Below, piece by piece: positions 7,907 to 56,571 of a stretch of 64,000 nucleotides of DNA. A model generated the notes under the pieces. It was not told where the DNA came from. It saw nothing but the letters and a program-made list of their open reading frames with translations, and searched no databases. This DNA comes from Propioniciclava soli (GTDB taxonomy: Bacteria; Actinomycetota; Actinomycetes; Propionibacteriales; Propionibacteriaceae). Position 1 is the stretch's first letter. The number at the start of each line of letters is the position of its first letter. A program made the translations under genes and the position numbers. The stretch covers positions 1 to 64,000 of the forward strand of contig NZ_JACYOT010000018.1 in NCBI RefSeq assembly GCF_014858005.1, in the 5' to 3' direction.

Positions 7907-8461
7907 CTCGCAAGCTTCCCGTGCCCCCTTCCATGACCGTCAGTACCGTCGTCGTGTTGGCCAGTCGATACGCCGCTGCTCGTCGAAGGCTGGGACGCTT
8001 GGCAGCCGTCGGCTTACGCTGGAGCGCAGCCCTGGACGCGGATTCACCCGGATCCAAAGCTCAGGCCATCCCCACGCCCTCCCCACAACAATGGTGCCGC
8101 CATGCCGATCGACGATCAAAAGTCCTTGTCAGGAGAGTGCGTGCGGGCGCGAGGGAGCTTCAACTCCTCTCTCGCGCACCGAGAGACATGTCTCCCCGAG
8201 TGCGGTCCTTAACCTTGACGTCTCCGTCGTCCAGTAGACCGCAATGTGGCCGGTGGCCGATGGCGGTCGGACTCGTCGTCCTGGGTGGGGCGTGTTTCGC
8301 AGGCCCGACCCGGGAGCGCCGGTGGCAGACAGTGCCTCCAGCGGATTGGCGCCGAGCGGGCCCCCTCGGACGTGTTGGGACATGCCGCTGTGAGGTGCTC
8401 CCGGCGCGAACCAGTCGTCCTCGGGATGGGCGTATGGTCCGTGCGCGTAGTCGCTTTGACG
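7907..8461. other. Gene-poor stretch
   Basis: Open frames here are arginine/serine/proline-rich and look like noise. The only structure seen is a 12-bp perfect palindrome, GAGACATGTCTC (8183-8194), after a GC-rich imperfect hairpin around 8140-8180. No function can be assigned. Confidence 0.4.
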
Positions 8462-8826
8462 ATGACCCCAGCGGCTCCCGAGCGGGCTATCAGGACGATC
8501 GGTATCGCTACCGCGCTGGATGGCGACACGCTGGTCACTGCGGACCCCGTTCGCCTGCGCCTGCTCGGCATCTACGCCCCCGAACTGGGTCACGACGGCA
8601 GCCCGGACGTTTGCGGTGCTGCGAGCGCCCACGAGCGGCTCAGCGAACTCGTCGGTACACACCGCATGGTCGTGAACTCCTCGGGACAAGGCCGGTTCGG
8701 GCGAACCTCGGAAACAGTCGAGGTCGCTGGATCGGATACGGCGTTGGCCCAGCTGCAGCTCTTCGCCGAGGAGTCCCCGTTCCTCGTGGTCGTGCTCGCG
8801 AAGGCCTGGTCCCGCCGGCAACGCCC
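8462..8826 (+). pseudogene. Staphylococcal-nuclease-like (thermonuclease) remnant
   Basis: From the ATG at 8462 the frame contains 'ALDGDTLVTADPVRLRLLGI' and 'YAPELG', then 'CGAASAHERLSELVG' and 'GRFGRT'. This matches the SNase pattern DGDT..V.....VRLLGIDAPE..CG..A...L.. and YGR, but the catalytic-region residues are altered (Tyr for Asp in IDAPE, no clear catalytic Arg between). After 'TALAQLQ' similarity ends, and the frame runs on antisense to the next gene without a family-like C-terminus. A truncated or decayed copy is the most likely reading; a diverged lipoprotein-type SNase is less likely. Confidence 0.45.
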
Positions 8827-48244: not shown

Positions 48245-48958
48245 TCACAGCCAGGGCCCCAGCTCGGGGACGCCGCCGCCGTCGGTGGTGAGGCCGGCGT
48301 GGTCACGGCCGGCGAGGTACGCCGCGATCTGCGCCAGCGGCCCGCGCACGGTGACCGGATCGCCGTCCCCGGCCAGTTCCCACCGCTGGTCGGCATCGGT
48401 AGGCGCCACGTGCAGCGCAGGGCCCGAGCCGCCGCGCTTGGCGACGATGTCGTCCACGAGCGCGCCCAGGAAGTCGGCCGGCAGGTCGGCGAACGTCACG
48501 TCGCCGCCCAGGTCGACGGCGTGCACCATGACCTCCCGCGCGCGCAGCCACGGCGTCTCGGACGCCGGCAGCGTCCGCCCCCGCGCGGTGCGCACCTCGG
48601 CGCTCCACGTGGCGTCGTCGAAGGCGTCCCAGTCGGACGCCAGCGCCGCGGCGGAGGCGTCCAGCCACGCCACCAGGTCGGCGGCGGAGCGCTGCGCACC
48701 CGCCTCGATGTCGGCGTTGCGCTGCTCCGGTGAGGTGTACATCGGCGTCTCGACGCCGGTGCGGGCCCACGTGGCGAGGTTGCGCAGCGCCTCGGCATTG
48801 GCGGCCACGTGGGCCACGAGGTGTTTGCGGCTCCACCCCTGCAGCGCACTGGGCTCGGCGAGGGTGGCGTCGTCGGGGGCGAGTGAGCGCAGGGCACGCC
48901 GGACGAGGTCCGTGCCCTGCGCCGCCCAGCGGCGGCCGTCGGCCGGGGTGCGGTTCAT
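48245..48958 (-). CDS. Mycothiol-dependent maleylpyruvate isomerase
   Basis: A 237-residue protein of the DinB/MDMPI fold. 'LQGWSRKHLVAHVAANAEAL' holds the His used for the metal, 'TPMYTSPEQRNADIEAGAQR' is typical of the MDMPI N-domain, and 'WLRAREVMVHAVDLG' carries the remaining ligands (Glu and His). The enzyme converts maleylpyruvate to fumarylpyruvate with mycothiol, the actinobacterial thiol. The ATG overlaps the stop of the hydrolase gene by 4 nt. Confidence 0.88.
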   Translation of the reverse strand: MNRTPADGRRWAAQGTDLVRRALRSLAPDDATLAEPSALQGWSRKHLVAHVAANAEALRNLATWARTGVETPMYTSPEQRNADIEAGAQRSAADLVAWLDASAAALASDWDAFDDATWSAEVRTARGRTLPASETPWLRAREVMVHAVDLGGDVTFADLPADFLGALVDDIVAKRGGSGPALHVAPTDADQRWELAGDGDPVTVRGPLAQIAAYLAGRDHAGLTTDGGGVPELGPWL

Positions 48959-49782
48959 CCCGCCACCACCTCGTTGGAGACCGAGCCGATGCCCTCGATC
49001 GTGCAGGTCACCGTCTGCCCGGCAGCGAGGTAGACGGGCGGTTTGCGGGCGTGGCCGACCCCGCCGGGGGTGCCCGAGGCGATGAGATCGCCCGGGTTGA
49101 GCCGGATCATCGTCGACACGTACTCCACCAGCGCCACCGGGTCGAACACCAGGTCGCCCGTGGTGTCGGACTGCATGGTCTGGCCGTCCACCTCCGTGGA
49201 GATCGCGAGGGCCGGGCGGACGCCGCCCACCTCGTCCGGCGTCACCAGCACGGGGCCGACCGGGGTGGTGGAGTCGAAGTTCTTGCCCTGGGTCCACTCA
49301 CGGGTGCGGAACTGCCAGTCGCGGCACGTGATGTCGTTCATCACGGTGAACCCCGCGATCGCCGCCTCCGCCTCCGCGCCGGACGCCCGACGCACCGGCT
49401 TGCCGATGACGACGACCAGCTCGGCCTCCCAGTCGAACTCCTGCGTCTCCTCGGGCCGCACGATCGGGTCGTGGGCGCCGATGAGGGTGTCGGCGAATTT
49501 CGGGAACAGCGTCGGGTGCTCCGGCAGGGGGCGTCCCATCTCGGTGATGTGGGTGGCGTAGTTCAGCCCCACGCACACCACCTTGGAGGGGTGGCCGATG
49601 AGGGTGGCGTACTCGGCGTCGGACGCCGAGCCGATCACCGCGGACGCCGCTGCGGCGGCGTCCGCCCAGTCGTCTCGGGCGAGGAAGTCGCCCAGGTCGG
49701 CTGCGCCGAGGTCGATCAGGTGGTCGGCGTCCACGCGGACCGCGCGGGTGCCGTCGGGCGTGCGTATCGTGGCGAGCTTCAT
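48955..49782 (-). CDS. Fumarylpyruvate hydrolase (FAH family)
   Basis: A 275-residue FAH-fold hydrolase. 'KVVCVGLNYATHITEMGRPL' and 'PTLFPKFADTLIGAHDPIVR' lead to the metal site 'FDWEAELVVVIGKPVRR' (ExE), followed by 'GFTVMNDITCRDWQFRTREW' and 'GDLIASGTPGGVGHARKPP'. In this operon it should split fumarylpyruvate into fumarate and pyruvate. Its ATG shares one base with the stop of the dioxygenase gene (TGATG); the longer upstream frame lies in that gene. Confidence 0.88.
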   Translation of the reverse strand: MKLATIRTPDGTRAVRVDADHLIDLGAADLGDFLARDDWADAAAAASAVIGSASDAEYATLIGHPSKVVCVGLNYATHITEMGRPLPEHPTLFPKFADTLIGAHDPIVRPEETQEFDWEAELVVVIGKPVRRASGAEAEAAIAGFTVMNDITCRDWQFRTREWTQGKNFDSTTPVGPVLVTPDEVGGVRPALAISTEVDGQTMQSDTTGDLVFDPVALVEYVSTMIRLNPGDLIASGTPGGVGHARKPPVYLAAGQTVTCTIEGIGSVSNEVVAG

Positions 49783-50918
49783 CAGTTCTTCTCCACCTCG
49801 ACGCGGGCCAGGTCCAACTTCTCGAAGATGGGGCAATCGGAGAATCGGAACAGGTCGAGGTGGCCCGAGTCGGAGCCGTCCTGGCCGGCGTCCGCCTGCG
49901 CGGAGAACGGCACCCAGCTCGGCACGACGAACATGTCACCGCGCTCGACGTTCCAGTGGGAGTCGCCGATGGTGACCGAGCCGGCCCCGTCGAACACCTG
50001 GAACACCGATGAGCCGGTCTCCTTCAGCGGTGCCGTCTCGCTCCCGGCCGCGATCCGGTGGAACTCGGTGCGGATCGTCGGCAGCACGTCCAGCCCCGTG
50101 TTCGGGTTGGTGTAGCGGACGGCGGCGTGGCCCGGCTCGACCGTCACCGCGTGGCCGGCTTTCTCGAGCTGGAGTTGGTCACGCAAGGCGGCGTCGGTGA
50201 ATTCCCACCGGTAGGCCAGCAGCGGCGACTTGGGGGTCGGGCCGACGAAGCTGAGCGGGGTGAGGCCGGGGCGTCCCCACAGCATCTCGGCGCGGGAGAC
50301 GTCCGGGGTCTCGAGGGCGTCCAGCTCCTCGGGGCCGAACTCGAAGAAGGTCGACTCGATCTCGTACTGGAACGGGATGTCGAGGCCGTCGATCCACGCC
50401 ATCGAGTGCTGAGAGGGGTTCTGGTGGGCGTGCCACGCCCAGCCGCCCTGGGGCAGGAAGTCGCCGCGGCGCATCGGCACCGGGTCGGAGTTGACGACCG
50501 TCCAGACGCCCTCACCCTCCACGACGAACCGGAAGGCGTTCTGGGTGTGGCGGTGGTAGGGGGCGATCTCCTCGGGGCACAGGTACTGGATGGCGGCCCA
50601 CAGCGTCGGGGTGGCGTACGGGCGTCCGCCGAGGGTCGGGTTGGCCAGGGCGATCGCCCGGCGCTCGCCGCCGCGGCCGACCGCGACGATCTCGCCGGCC
50701 TTCTCGGCCAGCTTGATGAGGTTCTGCCACCGCCACAGGTGGGGCGCGGCCTTGCTCATCGGGTGGAACGGCATGAGGTCGCCGATCTCGTACCACAGCG
50801 GAATCAGCATCTCCTCGGAGAAGCCGCGGTAGAGCTCGACCAGCTCCGGGGTCACCGGGGGCTGGTTGGGCGCGTCCTTCGCCTCGAGCCGGACGGGGGT
50901 CGGGTGCGTGTTGGGCAT
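49782..50918 (-). CDS. Gentisate 1,2-dioxygenase
   Basis: A 378-residue bicupin. The iron site is 'APYHRHTQNAFRFVVEGEGV' (HxH) and 'GWAWHAHQNPSQHSMAWIDG'; the C-terminal cupin has 'SSVFQVFDGAGSVTIGDSHW'. 'RWQNLIKLAEKAGEIV' and 'RRAIALANPTLGGRPYATPT' are strongly typical of gentisate dioxygenases. It opens the ring of gentisate to maleylpyruvate. It follows the transporter gene by 58 nt. Confidence 0.93.
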   Translation of the reverse strand: MPNTHPTPVRLEAKDAPNQPPVTPELVELYRGFSEEMLIPLWYEIGDLMPFHPMSKAAPHLWRWQNLIKLAEKAGEIVAVGRGGERRAIALANPTLGGRPYATPTLWAAIQYLCPEEIAPYHRHTQNAFRFVVEGEGVWTVVNSDPVPMRRGDFLPQGGWAWHAHQNPSQHSMAWIDGLDIPFQYEIESTFFEFGPEELDALETPDVSRAEMLWGRPGLTPLSFVGPTPKSPLLAYRWEFTDAALRDQLQLEKAGHAVTVEPGHAAVRYTNPNTGLDVLPTIRTEFHRIAAGSETAPLKETGSSVFQVFDGAGSVTIGDSHWNVERGDMFVVPSWVPFSAQADAGQDGSDSGHLDLFRFSDCPIFEKLDLARVEVEKN

Positions 50919-52425: not shown

Positions 52426-52455
52426 TTGTGTGGTCGGATCGTGAGAAGATGCGCC

Positions 52456-53232
52456 ATGCCGCAGCCCGCCCGCACCGTGAAGGAGCGGCCCCCGTACGCG
52501 ATCGCGAGCGTTGACCACGCGCTGCGTCTGGCGGCCCTGCTGCAGCTCGAGGGACTCGTCACGGTGACGGACGCCGCCGCGCACCTGGGCGTCGCGCCGA
52601 GCACCGCCCACCGCCTCCTGGCCATGCTCGTCTACCGCGACTTCGCGACCCGCGAGGGCCGCGGCTACCGCGTCGGGCCGGTGCTCGCGTCCGTCGGCCG
52701 GGCCCAGGGGGGCACCGGACGCCTCCGCACGGCCGCCCTGCCACGCATGGTGCGGCTCATGGAAACCTTTGAGGAGACCGCGACGCTCACGGTTCGTACG
52801 GGTCGGCTCGTCCGGTTCGTCGCCGAGGTGGAGTGCGAGCGGACGCTGCGGGTCGGCCACCGCACGGGGATGGTGTTCCCCGCGCACCGCACCTCGGGCG
52901 GCCTGGCGCTGCTGGCGGAACTCTCCGACGACGCGGTGGAGGAGCTGTACGACCAGGCCGCCGACGACGAGGAGAAGCCGGATCTGGCTTTGCTGCTCAC
53001 GCGGCTGGCCTCCGTGCGCGAGCAGGGGTTCGCCCTGAACAAGGGTCTGTCCGAGCGGGGTGTACTCGCCATTGGCCACGCCGTGCACGGGGCGGACGGC
53101 GTCGCGGTCGCGTCCCTGGGGTTGGCGATGCCGGCCAGCCGCTTCGAGCCGCGGCTCGTGCGACCCATGGTGGCCGCCCTGCGCGCGGGAGCCCGGGAGA
53201 TCCAGGCCCGGTTGGCCGAGGAACAGCACTGA
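52456..53232 (+). CDS. IclR-family regulator of the gentisate cluster
   Basis: A 258-residue regulator. The N-terminal winged helix is 'YAIASVDHALRLAALLQLEG' and 'VTDAAAHLGVAPSTAHRLLA'; the effector domain includes 'HRTGMVFPAHRTSGGLALLA' and 'REQGFALNKGLSERGVLAIG'. The ATG at 52456 is chosen over one at 52426, which falls next to the operator. It is divergent from the gentisate operon and probably controls it in response to the aromatic substrate or an intermediate. Confidence 0.92.
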   Translation: MPQPARTVKERPPYAIASVDHALRLAALLQLEGLVTVTDAAAHLGVAPSTAHRLLAMLVYRDFATREGRGYRVGPVLASVGRAQGGTGRLRTAALPRMVRLMETFEETATLTVRTGRLVRFVAEVECERTLRVGHRTGMVFPAHRTSGGLALLAELSDDAVEELYDQAADDEEKPDLALLLTRLASVREQGFALNKGLSERGVLAIGHAVHGADGVAVASLGLAMPASRFEPRLVRPMVAALRAGAREIQARLAEEQH

Positions 53233-53283: not shown

Positions 53284-54207
53284 TCACGCTGGGGTGACGG
53301 CGCCTCCATCCCGCAGCCGAGCCGTGTGGACCGGCGCCGGCTGGGGGAGCGACGCCGAGCAGGTGAGCTGGGCGGGCGGAGCGGACGCCACGTCGACCCG
53401 CACCCGGTGGGTGTGGCCCGCGGCGACCACCGCGACCTCCGCGCCGCCGGGGTCGCGCTGCAGCACGCGTGAGGTCACGGCGCCCAACCGCCTCTCGGCG
53501 AGCTGGCGCCGCACCGCCGCCTCGGCTGCCTGCGCCACCCACGGCACGGTCGTGCGGCCGCGATGGTGCTCCAGCGACAGCCGCCCGGCGAGGTGCTCGG
53601 CCACGACGACCGGACCAGACTCCGGGGTCAGCCGGCCGTAGGCGTGGGCGTCCGGGAGGCAAAGGAGGTTGGCGGCGAAACGGTCGCCGCCGAGGTGGGA
53701 CGACTCCCACACCTGCGCCGGCCACCGGTGCGCCAGCGCCGCGGCCAGCGGACGCCCGCGCTCGGCGCAGCAGGCGTCGTGGCGCCCGTGGGTGCACACG
53801 AGCAGGAGCGGTTCGTCCCAGCGCGGCAGGCCGACGCCGTCGGGCGTCCGCACCCCGGCGAGGTCCCAGTCCAGCAGCTCGGCCGGGTCGGCCACGCGCG
53901 TCGTCTCCACCCACCCGTGCGCCGCGTTCACCACGAACACCCGCCGGGGGCCCGGCTCACCGCGCCCGGGCCGGCGGATCAGCACCGGCCGGACGCCGAG
54001 CTCCCGCTCCCACGCCCTCAGCCGGCCGCGCACCTCGGGCGCCAACCGTCGGTTGCGGAGCACCGCGGGGCCCCACGGGCCCGGGTCCTCCAGCAGCACG
54101 AACCGCCCGACCGTGGACGCCGTTGCCGTCAGCGGCTCGGAGCGCGCCTCGCTCGCCGCCGCGCAACGAAAGGGCTCCGGGGGTGCCGCGACGGCGTCCG
54201 GCGTCAC
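53284..54207 (-). CDS. Sucrase/ferredoxin-like (thioredoxin-fold) protein
   Basis: A 307-residue protein of the sucraseferredoxin-like family. The hallmark is 'LLLVCTHGRHDACCAERGRP' followed by 'VWESSHLGGDRFAANLLCLP', the Cys and His residues of a presumed [2Fe-2S] or thioredoxin-like site; 'FVLLEDPGPWG' lies near the N-terminus. Its GTG start overlaps the stop of the JmjC gene (GTGA), so the products are made together. A redox or electron-supply role for the oxygenase is an attractive inference, but no function is proven for the family. Confidence 0.85.
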   Translation of the reverse strand: MTPDAVAAPPEPFRCAAASEARSEPLTATASTVGRFVLLEDPGPWGPAVLRNRRLAPEVRGRLRAWERELGVRPVLIRRPGRGEPGPRRVFVVNAAHGWVETTRVADPAELLDWDLAGVRTPDGVGLPRWDEPLLLVCTHGRHDACCAERGRPLAAALAHRWPAQVWESSHLGGDRFAANLLCLPDAHAYGRLTPESGPVVVAEHLAGRLSLEHHRGRTTVPWVAQAAEAAVRRQLAERRLGAVTSRVLQRDPGGAEVAVVAAGHTHRVRVDVASAPPAQLTCSASLPQPAPVHTARLRDGGAVTPA

Positions 54208-55334
54208 CGCACCACTTCCAGCAACCCCTCACGCACGAGCCGGCGGACCAGCACGACCGCGCTGTCGGTGTCGAGGTGGTCGGCCACGTCGGCCGCGGTG
54301 AACGCGCCGGACTGGCCGGCGATGTCGTCCACCGCCCCCGCGATCCGGGCCGGCACGGTCAGGACGCGGTCGCCCAGCAGCAGGCGCAGGCGCTCGCCGT
54401 CGGGCCGGATCACGCAGGTGCTGCCCGGACGTCGCCGCACTGGGGTGTCGGCGGTGAGATCGGTGACATCCAACCGGTCGAGCAGGCCGCCGCCCAGCAC
54501 AGGTTGGCGTCCGGAGCCGAACGTGCGCTCGAAGGACGCCAGCATGGGCTCGACCTCGCTGGTGCGCACCGCGTCGGCCACCTCGGCCAGCTTGGCCCGC
54601 AGGGCGGCGGCGAGGGCGTCCGGATCGGCGAACAGATCCGCCGGCAGCGGGCCCGCCAAGGCGTCGGCGGCGAGGATCGGGTCGACGACCCGACGCACCA
54701 AGTCGCGCCACACGTAGCGGTTGATGCCGATCGTGACGTGCAGGGACGCGGTCGCCTGCGTGCGCGCCATGTGCGGCGTGCCGGTGGGCAGGTACATGCT
54801 CGTGCCCGGCACCATGCGCACCTGGTGGGCGCCCGCGTCGTCGTGGACCTCCCACTCCTTGGCGCCGAACGTCTGGAACACGAACACGTCGTGGCTGTCG
54901 GAGTGCAGCGCGAAGCCCTGCGAACCGGGCGGGGTCAGGTAGGCGTTGGCCTGGCAGGGGTGGCCGAGCGCGGTCTCGAGGCCGCGGACGAGCTGGCGCA
55001 GCGGCTCCCAGTAGCGCTGCAACCCCTGGAAGACGATGGTGGCGCCGTCGGAGAACAGGTCGAGCACCTTGCGGGGGTCGATCAGCCCCGTCATCGGCTT
55101 GCCGGCGATGGACGCCTGCCGCGTGAAGCGGCTCTCGGCGAGCACCGAGCCGGATTGGGCGAGGCGCAGCTGCGGCGTCCGCAGTGCGGTCTGGGTGATC
55201 AGGTGGTCGGCCTGCTCGATGTCGAACAGCCCGGCCAGGTCGGCCTCGGGGATGGTGTGGACGTGGATCCGGCGACCCCACACCTCCTCGATGAAGGTGT
55301 GGGCGTCGCCGGAGAGCAGATCGAGTGGGTCCAT
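54204..55334 (-). CDS. JmjC/cupin-type 2-oxoglutarate oxygenase
   Basis: A 376-residue protein of the Cupin_4 group (YcfD/NO66/MINA53 type hydroxylases). The Fe(II) ligands are His 144 and Asp 146 in 'GFALHSDSHDVFVFQTFGAK' and His 188 in 'YLPTGTPHMARTQ'. 'FQGLQRYWEPLRQLVRGLET' precedes the core, and the C-terminal 100 residues form a winged-helix-like domain. Relatives hydroxylate ribosomal proteins; here the gene is 3 nt from a repetitive Asp/Gly protein and overlaps a redox protein, so that repeat protein is a plausible substrate. Confidence 0.88.
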   Translation of the reverse strand: MDPLDLLSGDAHTFIEEVWGRRIHVHTIPEADLAGLFDIEQADHLITQTALRTPQLRLAQSGSVLAESRFTRQASIAGKPMTGLIDPRKVLDLFSDGATIVFQGLQRYWEPLRQLVRGLETALGHPCQANAYLTPPGSQGFALHSDSHDVFVFQTFGAKEWEVHDDAGAHQVRMVPGTSMYLPTGTPHMARTQATASLHVTIGINRYVWRDLVRRVVDPILAADALAGPLPADLFADPDALAAALRAKLAEVADAVRTSEVEPMLASFERTFGSGRQPVLGGGLLDRLDVTDLTADTPVRRRPGSTCVIRPDGERLRLLLGDRVLTVPARIAGAVDDIAGQSGAFTAADVADHLDTDSAVVLVRRLVREGLLEVVR

Positions 55335-55337
55335 CGC

Positions 55338-55763
55338 TCAGGCGTCGACGCCGTCGGCGTCGGAGGAGTCGCCGTCCACCCCGTCGGTGCTGTCGCCGTC
55401 GGTGCCGTCGGCATCCCCGCCGTCGACGCCGTCGGCGTCGGAGGAGTCGCCGTCCACCCCGTCGGTGCTGTCGCCGTCGGTGCCGTCGGCATCCCCGCCG
55501 TCGACGCCGTCGGCGTCGGAGGAGTCGCCGTCCACCCCGTCGGTGCTGTCGCCGTCGGTGCCGTCGGCATCCCCGCCGTCGACGCCGTCGGCGTCGGAGG
55601 AGTCGCCGTCCACCCCGTCGGTGCTGTCGCCGTCGGTGCCATCGGCATCCCCGCCGTCGACGCCGTCCGCGTCACCGCCGGAGGCCTGCGGGCCGGGCGT
55701 CTCCACGCCGGAACCGGACGTGATGAGCTCGTCGTCGCTGAGGGGTTCGGTGTTCTCGGTCAC
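55338..55763 (-). CDS. Asp/Gly repeat protein, possible substrate or RiPP precursor
   Basis: A 141-residue, extremely acidic protein. The first 30 residues are non-repetitive ('MTENTEPLSDDELITSGSGV' then 'ETPGPQASGG'). Residues 31-134 are four near-identical 26-residue units beginning 'DADGVDGGDADGTDGDSTDG', and the chain ends 'DADGVDA'. The GTG start has AAGGAG 6 nt upstream, which supports translation. The D-x-D-G spacing resembles calcium-binding repeats, but the clean leader/repeat division and the oxygenase encoded 3 nt downstream also fit a modified peptide. I recall similar actinobacterial proteins annotated 'BatC', without a known function. Confidence 0.8.
   Translation of the reverse strand: MTENTEPLSDDELITSGSGVETPGPQASGGDADGVDGGDADGTDGDSTDGVDGDSSDADGVDGGDADGTDGDSTDGVDGDSSDADGVDGGDADGTDGDSTDGVDGDSSDADGVDGGDADGTDGDSTDGVDGDSSDADGVDA
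55362..55673 (-). repeat. 78-bp tandem repeat, four copies
   Basis: The same DNA segment recurs every 78 bp (for example CGGAGGAGTCGCCGTCCACC at 55361, 55439, 55517 and 55595). Almost no silent differences exist (one G-to-A at about 55639), so the copies were made or homogenised recently. Confidence 0.95.
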
Positions 55764-55896
55764 GGGATGCTCCTTCGTGAGTGGGTCCGCGCCGCGGCGA
55801 CGCGATGCTCCCGACCCTAGTGGGACGCCGCCGGTGCCGCCAGCCCCCGGATCAGCCGCAGCGCACTAGGATCGGAGGCCAACCGAGGAGGTGCCC

Positions 55897-56571
55897 ATGG
55901 GCAAGAAGGCCGAGAAGAAGGCTGAGAAGAAGGCGGCGCGCAAGGCCGAGGCCAAGGCGCTGCGCAAGGCGGAGGAGAAGAAGGCCCGCAAGGCCGAGAA
56001 GAAGGCCGAGGCGGTGAAGGCGGAGGCGGCTGCGGCGCAGGCGGCCGAGGTCGAGGCCGATGCGGCCGCCGCGATCGAGGCCGAGCAGGCCGAGGCTGCC
56101 CAGCTGGTCGAGGCCGAGGCGCCGGTGAGCCCGCCCGCCCGCAAGCCGGTGCTCTTCCAGAAGGACTACGGTCGCCAGCCCTACGTCGTGAACGTCGAGA
56201 AGGCGACGCTGGCCAACAAGCACTTCCGCAAGACCATCTGGACCGGCGAGCACCTCCAGTTGACCTACATGACCATCCCGCCGGGCGGCGACATCGGCCT
56301 GGAGGTGCACCCCGACACCGACCAGTTCCTGCGCGTCGAGCAGGGCACCGGGCGCGTCCAGATGGGGCCGGCCGAGGACGAGCTGACCTACACCCGCCGC
56401 GTCACCGGCGACTTCGTCGTGCTCGTGCCCGCCGGCACCTGGCACAACATCACCAACACCGGCCGAGACGATCTCAAGCTGTACACCCTGTACGGCCCGC
56501 CGGACCACGTCGCCGGCACGGTGCACCGCACCCAGGCCGATGCCGAGACCGACCCGAACGAGGAGCACTGA
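55897..56571 (+). CDS. Cupin-domain protein with Lys/Ala-rich N-terminus
   Basis: A 224-residue protein. Residues 1-70 are a highly charged helix built on repeats of KKAEKKA ('MGKKAEKKAEKKAARKAEAK') that shifts to Glu/Ala-rich, probably a coiled coil or nucleic-acid-binding tail. Residues about 85-215 form a single cupin: 'GGDIGLEVHPDTDQFLRVEQ' and 'VLVPAGTWHNITNTGRDDLK' with the metal-binding His/Glu set. ATG 55897 has GAGGAG 6 nt upstream. The cupin core resembles mannose-isomerase-like cupins often linked to stress; the substrate is unknown. Confidence 0.82.
   Translation: MGKKAEKKAEKKAARKAEAKALRKAEEKKARKAEKKAEAVKAEAAAAQAAEVEADAAAAIEAEQAEAAQLVEAEAPVSPPARKPVLFQKDYGRQPYVVNVEKATLANKHFRKTIWTGEHLQLTYMTIPPGGDIGLEVHPDTDQFLRVEQGTGRVQMGPAEDELTYTRRVTGDFVVLVPAGTWHNITNTGRDDLKLYTLYGPPDHVAGTVHRTQADAETDPNEEH

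Follow-up and report, generated by a model that had tools for sequence, protein, structure and literature searches.

A stretch of 64,000 nucleotides from the genome of Propioniciclava soli (Actinomycetota; contig NZ_JACYOT010000018.1, positions 1 to 64,000; hereafter the window) carries on its minus strand three adjacent genes which code, in order of transcription, for an Asp/Gly repeat protein, a JmjC_2 oxygenase and a ferredoxin of the sucrase/ferredoxin-like (Suc/Fer) family. The trio is a real, widespread and conserved unit of Actinomycetota, and many of the hosts that bear it are soil and water bacteria. We regard it as likely that the trio is a multi-core peptide-modification system resembling those of the ribosomally synthesized and post-translationally modified peptides (RiPPs), in which the JmjC_2 enzyme hydroxylates the repeated Asp residues of the small protein, the Suc/Fer protein serves as redox partner and a metal-binding or signaling product may result.

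An earlier note on this DNA had described the three genes as lying on the same strand, with a gap of 3 nucleotides between the repeat open reading frame (ORF) and the JmjC gene and of −4 nucleotides (a 4-nucleotide overlap) between JmjC and Suc/Fer, and had suggested a search of related genomes for conservation of the neighborhood. The layout is as described (Table 1), and the trio is kept phylum-wide, so the proposal came through the refutation test that the note itself had set. Relatives were gathered with the JmjC protein or its alignment alone, without regard to neighboring genes. They were found in 31 of 147 genomes of the window's family. With a cutoff of 1e-20, the order yielded 128 positive genomes among 293 and the phylum 42 among 296, the latter two counts including some distant homologs. 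The window protein has one match within its own genome. A scan of named genomes returned at least 572 relatives, and the hosts of the best 80, which were retained for analysis, include Piscicoccus, Micropruina, Nocardioides, Aeromicrobium, Mycolicibacterium, Gordonia, Rhodococcus, Cellulomonas, Acidimicrobiia and Nitriliruptoraceae. Outside Actinomycetota the unit was also present in two metagenome-assembled genomes (one deltaproteobacterial, one Myxococcales; Myxococcota).

The main set comprises 142 loci at which a JmjC gene was identified (L061 yielded none and was left out) and is made up of overlapping locus sets, such that it holds 122 distinct JmjC genes as judged by the active-site stretch. 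By a criterion that itself requires Asp, a repeat ORF lies directly upstream of JmjC at 135 of the 142 loci and for 117 of the 122 distinct genes. Three of the five distinct misses are at contig edges (L062, L082, and L109) and the other two, L051 (=L156) and L056 (=L155), carry GADHGAD repeats on reading. As only 101 other ORFs among the 12,304 in these loci satisfy the same criterion, the pairing of JmjC and repeat ORF is not due to chance. Suc/Fer follows downstream at 128 of the 142 loci (26/32, 75/80, and 27/30 by set), or 111 of the 122 distinct genes.

Two wider samples were read as well. The first, a class-wide PF08007 set of 50 loci, consisted of 30 returned by the search and 20 hand-picked lower matches; two of the 50 were already among the 142, and L253 contributed three JmjC rows and L259 none. 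All 25 rows scoring 322 or higher satisfy the repeat criterion, 24 of them on reading, and none of the 26 rows scoring 216 or lower has repeats on reading, the five of these that pass the criterion being four short single-core peptides and one unrelated ORF. In the second, a phylum-wide set of 29 loci (four already in the 142, seven in the class-wide set and 18 new), 27 pass the repeat criterion and 24 have Suc/Fer adjacent. Sixteen of the 18 new genes pass; of the remaining two, one (L384) sits at the end of a contig and the other (L375) shows DGTDQG-type repeats when read. The ORF before the L375 JmjC gene (reverse strand, ~13-1414 of the reverse complement) is precursor-like and very long, with repeats of the type YGPRDASSADGTDQG that are unusual in containing Tyr/Arg. 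In a quick tree of 105 JmjC proteins, the repeat-linked ones form a single group supported by a Shimodaira-Hasegawa-like approximate likelihood ratio test (SH-aLRT) value of 89; the group also holds four long-branched rows without repeats, whose placement is unsure.

Table 1. Features of the trio in the window (positions counted from the first nucleotide of the window; aa, amino acids; nt, nucleotides).
Feature	Position	Strand	Basis
Asp/Gly repeat protein, precursor-like, 141 aa, GTG start	55338..55763	-	ORF reading; Asp-repeat ORFs at the same position in relatives
Likely ribosome-binding site AAGGAG, 6 nt ahead of the repeat-ORF GTG	55770..55775	-	Read from sequence
Leader motif LSDDELIT, residues 8-15 of the repeat protein, fitting L-x-D-D-[DE]-[IM]-x-T	55719..55742	-	
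Core, 4.2 copies of a 78-nt (26-aa) Asp-rich unit	55343..55673	-	Tandem Repeats Finder
JmjC_2 (ROX/NO66-type) Fe(II)/2-oxoglutarate oxygenase, 376 aa, ATG start	54204..55334	-	Pfam, alignments, PDB profile matches
Span of predicted Fe(II) ligands: H144 (54903-54905), D146 (54897-54899), H188 (54771-54773)	54771..54905	-	Alignment invariance
JmjC C-terminal winged-helix domain, residues 292-376, candidate leader-binding	54207..54461	-	Model; 4csw match runs through it
Suc/Fer thioredoxin-like [2Fe-2S] ferredoxin, 307 aa, GTG start, CX8C + HX3D	53284..54207	-	Pfam, motif reading

The four 26-residue units that the earlier note had counted in the window's repeat protein were recovered by Tandem Repeats Finder with 99% matches. 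Across 115 distinct precursors the repeats fall into three main core classes, D[AS]DG[TV]DG (62 precursors), EGPADGGAEGxPGV/DGGADGGA (31) and GEGxADGGxNPxGHDGGADGxA (14), with eight others. Asp is present at three or more copies in all 115 cores, a count partly built in since the repeat criterion demands Asp, and Gly in 111, Ala in 110, Thr in 81 and Ser in 76. The weight of the argument for Asp lies in the hit rate of the Asp-based test, in the lower counts for Gly, Thr, and Ser and in the cores of L119, L122, and L138, which consist of almost nothing but Asp with Ala/Ser (DADAADADA type). The motif and the other residues vary between lineages, and dense, evenly spaced Asp is kept where repeat motifs differ. 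Asp, one of the target residues offered in the earlier note, is supported by its density in the cores of different lineages; Ser/Thr, the other suggestion, was rejected as a general target, as was Gly, because of their rarity in part of the cores. A narrower criterion, satisfied at 107 of the 142 loci and losing many cores of class B and the majority of those of class C, left 92 cores that were used for spacing and neighbor counts only. None of these contains Cys, their Asp residues are mostly two to three residues apart with a median of 20 per core, and Asp-Gly is the commonest pair (862 Gly after Asp).

N-terminal to the core, 81 of the 115 distinct precursors have the leader motif L-x-D-D-[DE]-[IM]-x-T. 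The search pattern behind the positional counts (78 precursors) fixed Asp at +2 and restricted positions +0, +4, and +5; at the free positions there is Thr at +7 in 72 precursors and Asp at +3 in 58, and Leu fills +0, a position open to L, I, V, or M, in 73 of 78. That the repeat frame is translated and constrained is indicated by ratios of non-synonymous to synonymous change (pN/pS) of 0.02-0.29 across 23 partly overlapping precursor pairs, which were picked at 80% or higher amino acid identity and equal length, biasing the ratio down; the L130/L135 pair, for instance, differs by 23 synonymous changes and 1 non-synonymous change. The window's repeat protein had no Pfam match, and neither Pfam nor NCBIfam matched three other precursors that were tried; the precursors are of low complexity. 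NCBIfam had no match for any of the window's three proteins.

The JmjC protein of the window matches Pfam JmjC_2 (8.7e-17) and, in profile searches of the PDB, NO66 (2e-35), MINA (8e-29) and 4csw (4e-12, through the C-terminal domain), as well as YxbC and YcfD; among proteins of solved structure NO66 and MINA match it best and YcfD ranks lower. The entry 4csw is named only as a cupin 4 family protein. The Fe ligands proposed earlier, H144, D146, and H188, proved invariant in alignments of 22 and 47 rows (window sequence included) and form the HXD...H triad. An AlphaFold2 model of the protein had a predicted local distance difference test (pLDDT) score of 94.4, and the C-terminal domain modeled alone scored 95.3, with strands followed by three helices in an order of elements that fits a RiPP recognition element (RRE). 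This winged helix is a candidate leader-binding domain.

As to the third gene (Pfam Suc_Fer-like, 7.9e-19), the Cys-His motifs that the earlier note had ascribed to it were borne out in part: CX8C is kept, in the window protein and in most linked copies, and HX3H is replaced by HX3D, Asp taking the place of the second cluster His. Among 128 linked Suc/Fer proteins the motif is present in 126 (125 HX3D and 1 HX3E) and missing from two, or 108 HX3D, 1 HX3E and two without by distinct copies. A second sample had HX3D in 19 of 19 linked copies, and its 22 loci without JmjC had HX3H in 19, HX3D in one and no motif in two; in the phylum-wide set the linked copies were HX3D in 24 of 24. We rejected the idea that HX3D is exclusive to the trio, as a search seeded with an unlinked HX3D protein identified unlinked copies in ten genomes and as the linked protein of L295 has HLGGC (HX3C) instead of HxGGD. 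Four of the ten genomes (G375, G392, G406, and G419) hold a repeat-linked JmjC gene elsewhere; among the other six, G384 had no JmjC_2 match listed in a genome sample that included it. HX3D therefore marks a subfamily wider than the trio and is apparently an unstudied ferredoxin ligand set. At L214, an HX3D Suc/Fer gene (7942-8757) adjoins genes for a Peripla_BP_2 protein and an ABC transporter, with no JmjC gene among the ORFs listed for this 17-kb locus. A siderophore context was rejected as a general feature of unlinked HX3D Suc/Fer genes, since inspection of the other loci by eye showed none.

Upstream of several JmjC_2 genes that fall outside the repeat group is an ORF of 35-49 residues whose leader is hydrophobic/acidic and whose short tail contains Asp, ending for example in SDSDGSDG or GTDGSSDFI (L247, L249, L251, L254, L248, L250, L218, L225, L227, L232, L261, L262, and L265). 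Suc/Fer proteins with HLGGD are also near L247 and L254, and in place of Suc/Fer an FhuF_C-type [2Fe-2S] protein is encoded beside JmjC at L261 (3782-4645) and L265 (3967-4830); a prolyl oligopeptidase is encoded at L261 as well. A single broader family of JmjC/Asp-peptide systems with an exchangeable [2Fe-2S] partner is suggested by these findings. These single-core relatives, the leader motif, the winged helix of the ribosomal oxygenase (ROX) type and the change from HX3H to HX3D are additions to the earlier note. Two more distant JmjC_2 genes lie in apparent RiPP clusters, with neighbors named by eye and not by profile: YcaO/azoline-like proteins at L215 (5849-7249) and small ORFs resembling NHLP leaders at L216 (6158-7414).

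The trio would work as follows. The small ORF would be a precursor composed of the N-terminal recognition motif and a core of repeated Asp-containing units, and its acidic-hydrophobic leader would probably be held by the C-terminal winged helix. The JmjC active site may then walk along the repeats using Fe(II), O2, and 2-oxoglutarate and hydroxylate the Asp residues, most likely at the β carbon, while the [2Fe-2S] cluster of Suc/Fer would hold the iron of the oxygenase in the ferrous state over the roughly 20 or more turnovers that each chain requires or, alternatively, would reduce product-bound iron. A poly-β-hydroxyaspartyl peptide, most plausibly a metal chelator, would result. That the repeat peptide is the substrate of the oxygenase we predict with high confidence, and there is a strong likelihood that Asp is the residue targeted; β-hydroxylation is the more probable chemistry, though we hold it with less assurance, and metal chelation as the end function is a tentative prediction. 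These estimates rest on the rate of synteny and not on the counts that are partly built in. The trio shares with RiPP systems a gene-encoded precursor beside a dedicated modifying enzyme (135/142 loci) and a conserved leader set apart from a variable core (81/115 distinct precursors). Genes for leader removal or export, which some RiPP clusters do not hold either, were not found conserved in a noisy clustering of the ORFs of the loci. Since no exporter, protease, or iron box was seen, we are cautious about a secreted siderophore, and an intracellular chelator or store is equally likely. A more far-reaching version, in which the trios are phylum-wide ribosomal metallophores or iron stores, with a poly-Asp scaffold turned into a poly-β-hydroxyaspartyl chelator by one JmjC enzyme and the 2Cys-His-Asp [2Fe-2S] protein acting as ferric reductase, is hinted at by the FhuF_C proteins of L261 and L265 and by the transport genes beside the L214 Suc/Fer, and we consider it unlikely. 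If the system operates as proposed, it would be a multi-core RiPP-like class of large size within Actinomycetota, widen the chemistry of ROX-type JmjC enzymes to include dense hydroxylation of a peptide and provide a three-gene cassette for poly-hydroxyaspartate peptides.

Several observations weigh against parts of this proposal. Two loci that pass the repeat criterion are degenerate on reading: L045 is weakly repeated, and L243 (=L362) has a degenerate acidic ORF. Suc/Fer is absent despite sufficient room at L044, L045, L048, L053, L106, and L136, some of the other misses being contig ends. Within the window's order the leader motif is missing from the majority of class B precursors (some B-type cores elsewhere, at L239 and L242, retain a DDDMTT leader), and the winged helix is wholly absent from the class B enzymes of L042 and L049, where the precursors are without the motif too; leader docking thus cannot be universal. 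When the leader motif was compared with an R-[EQD]-[GA] signature at the last helix of the winged helix, 70 cases had both, nine the leader only, four the signature only and 29 neither, which is weak evidence for an association as the leaderless precursors are largely interrelated. Alignment of the winged helix to 18 PqqD sequences gave an hhalign probability of 0.4 and Pfam returned no PqqD match for it, so that sequence does not support classing it as an RRE. No further conserved neighbor (protease, exporter, or regulator) was seen in the ORF clustering, which works on the longest ORFs of GC-rich sequence and is affected by antisense noise; the next largest family after the trio occurs at 12 loci, on both strands and in varied positions. 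Finally, judged from sequence, the data would fit β-hydroxylation and other oxidations alike.

The alternative that fares best is one in which the repeat protein is the substrate but is neither cut nor exported, and acts as a modified acidic protein of the cytosol that buffers metal or binds Ca. The lack of a conserved protease or transporter is consistent with this, as is the lack of an evident signal sequence in the precursors (by eye, no predictor being run), and the spacing of Asp at two to three residues resembles that of Ca-binding loops, which follow the pattern DxDxDG. However, the leader set apart from the core is reminiscent of recognition in RiPP systems, the 35-49-residue single-core relatives resemble ordinary RiPP precursors and the repeat protein has no PDB sequence match, on which ground a Ca-binding repeat by homology was rejected; we see the uncut protein as a lesser possibility. 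A chemistry other than β-hydroxylation, such as α-oxidation of Gly with chain cleavage, desaturation, or cross-linking, the ferredoxin acting as a second catalyst in its own right, would be in keeping with the prevalence of Asp-Gly pairs, with the overlap of the ferredoxin and JmjC genes and with the several kinds of activity of JmjC enzymes. The scarcity of Gly in the L119, L122, and L138 cores makes Gly an unlikely general target, and we judge this alternative rather improbable.

It is also feasible, although very unlikely in our view, that the trio is a sensor of Fe, O2, or 2-oxoglutarate in which the cytosolic repeat protein is the read-out and its degree of hydroxylation controls something else. 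An Fe/2-oxoglutarate enzyme, a [2Fe-2S] protein and many like sites could together give a graded output, but the noisy clustering revealed no conserved regulator or target nearby, and 68 regions upstream of leader-bearing precursors contained no convincing IdeR- or Zur-like box. The best IdeR match had 5/19 mismatches, in one region, against a best of 6 in shuffled sequences (one shuffle each), and the best Zur matches were 5/15, the same as in the shuffles; regulation by iron or zinc was rejected on these grounds. That the JmjC protein is an ordinary ribosomal-protein hydroxylase beside a chance repeat ORF in high-GC DNA, a reading favored by the ranking of NO66 and MINA as best PDB matches and by the other open frames of the repeat DNA, is hardly credible given repeat ORFs at 135 of 142 loci, constraint at the protein level and no such repeats at JmjC_2 genes outside the group.

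Among known systems, the ROX enzymes (NO66, MINA53, and YcfD; PF08007) share with the trio oxygenase the JmjC_2 domain, the HXD...H ligands and the C-terminal winged helix. Their known substrates are Arg or His of ribosomal proteins; the gene of the trio oxygenase is accompanied by those for an Asp-repeat precursor and a ferredoxin. The biphenomycin enzymes BipG/BpmG (JmjC) and their cupin-like relative PbsQ likewise hydroxylate a side chain within a RiPP precursor (PMC12707348; PMC12257519). Theirs is a single ornithine, in clusters with an MNIO, an arginase, a radical S-adenosylmethionine protein and a TldD-type protease, whereas the trio oxygenase is the sole evident modifying enzyme and faces a median of about 20 Asp per core (92 cores). 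The nearest printed hint to the trio that we found is the report of Bregman et al. (2025; PMC12710340), the accessible parts of which note that PF08007 proteins of fish and algae carry fused RRE-like folds and place the closest bacterial homologs (~30% identity) in RiPP-like contexts; a bacterial unit, a precursor, repeats, a leader motif and a ferredoxin partner are all absent from those parts.

The trio ferredoxin resembles the Apd1/Aim32 ferredoxins in CX8C and in the family profile PF06999, and differs in that Aim32 has HX3H (PMC8482512) where the trio has HX3D. A poly-β-hydroxyaspartyl product would also invite comparison with the cupriachelins, which are made non-ribosomally. In these lipopeptide siderophores β-hydroxyaspartate is an Fe(III) ligand (PMC10484230), so that the proposed Fe(III)-binding group would be common to both; no transporter or iron box was found at the trio loci. 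None of five repeat and leader motif strings occurred in any paper of the literature searched, most subscription papers being outside its scope, and no paper found there describes the trio. The phrase “sucrase ferredoxin” led to two fungal papers, and JmjC together with RiPP to the biphenomycin and RRE papers. The unit is apparently undescribed, new as a RiPP-like class and built from known superfamilies.

A link to phages, plasmids, or defense was rejected: phage records and PADLOC gave no match, and 65 plasmid records gave only partial, distant matches, none covering 80%. In PHROGs the JmjC protein matched three families of unknown function (best 3.7e-13) and the other two proteins none. Directly upstream of the window trio is a divergent cupin gene (55891-56571, plus strand) with a long Lys/Ala/Glu-rich N-terminus, which is outside the conserved neighbor families. 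On the other side, a gentisate 1,2-dioxygenase-like gene and a fumarylacetoacetate-hydrolase-like gene (together 48955-50918, minus strand) lie near a transporter ORF, all three named by eye, and near an IclR regulator identified by Pfam (52426-53232, plus strand); the group looks like an aromatic-acid catabolism operon.

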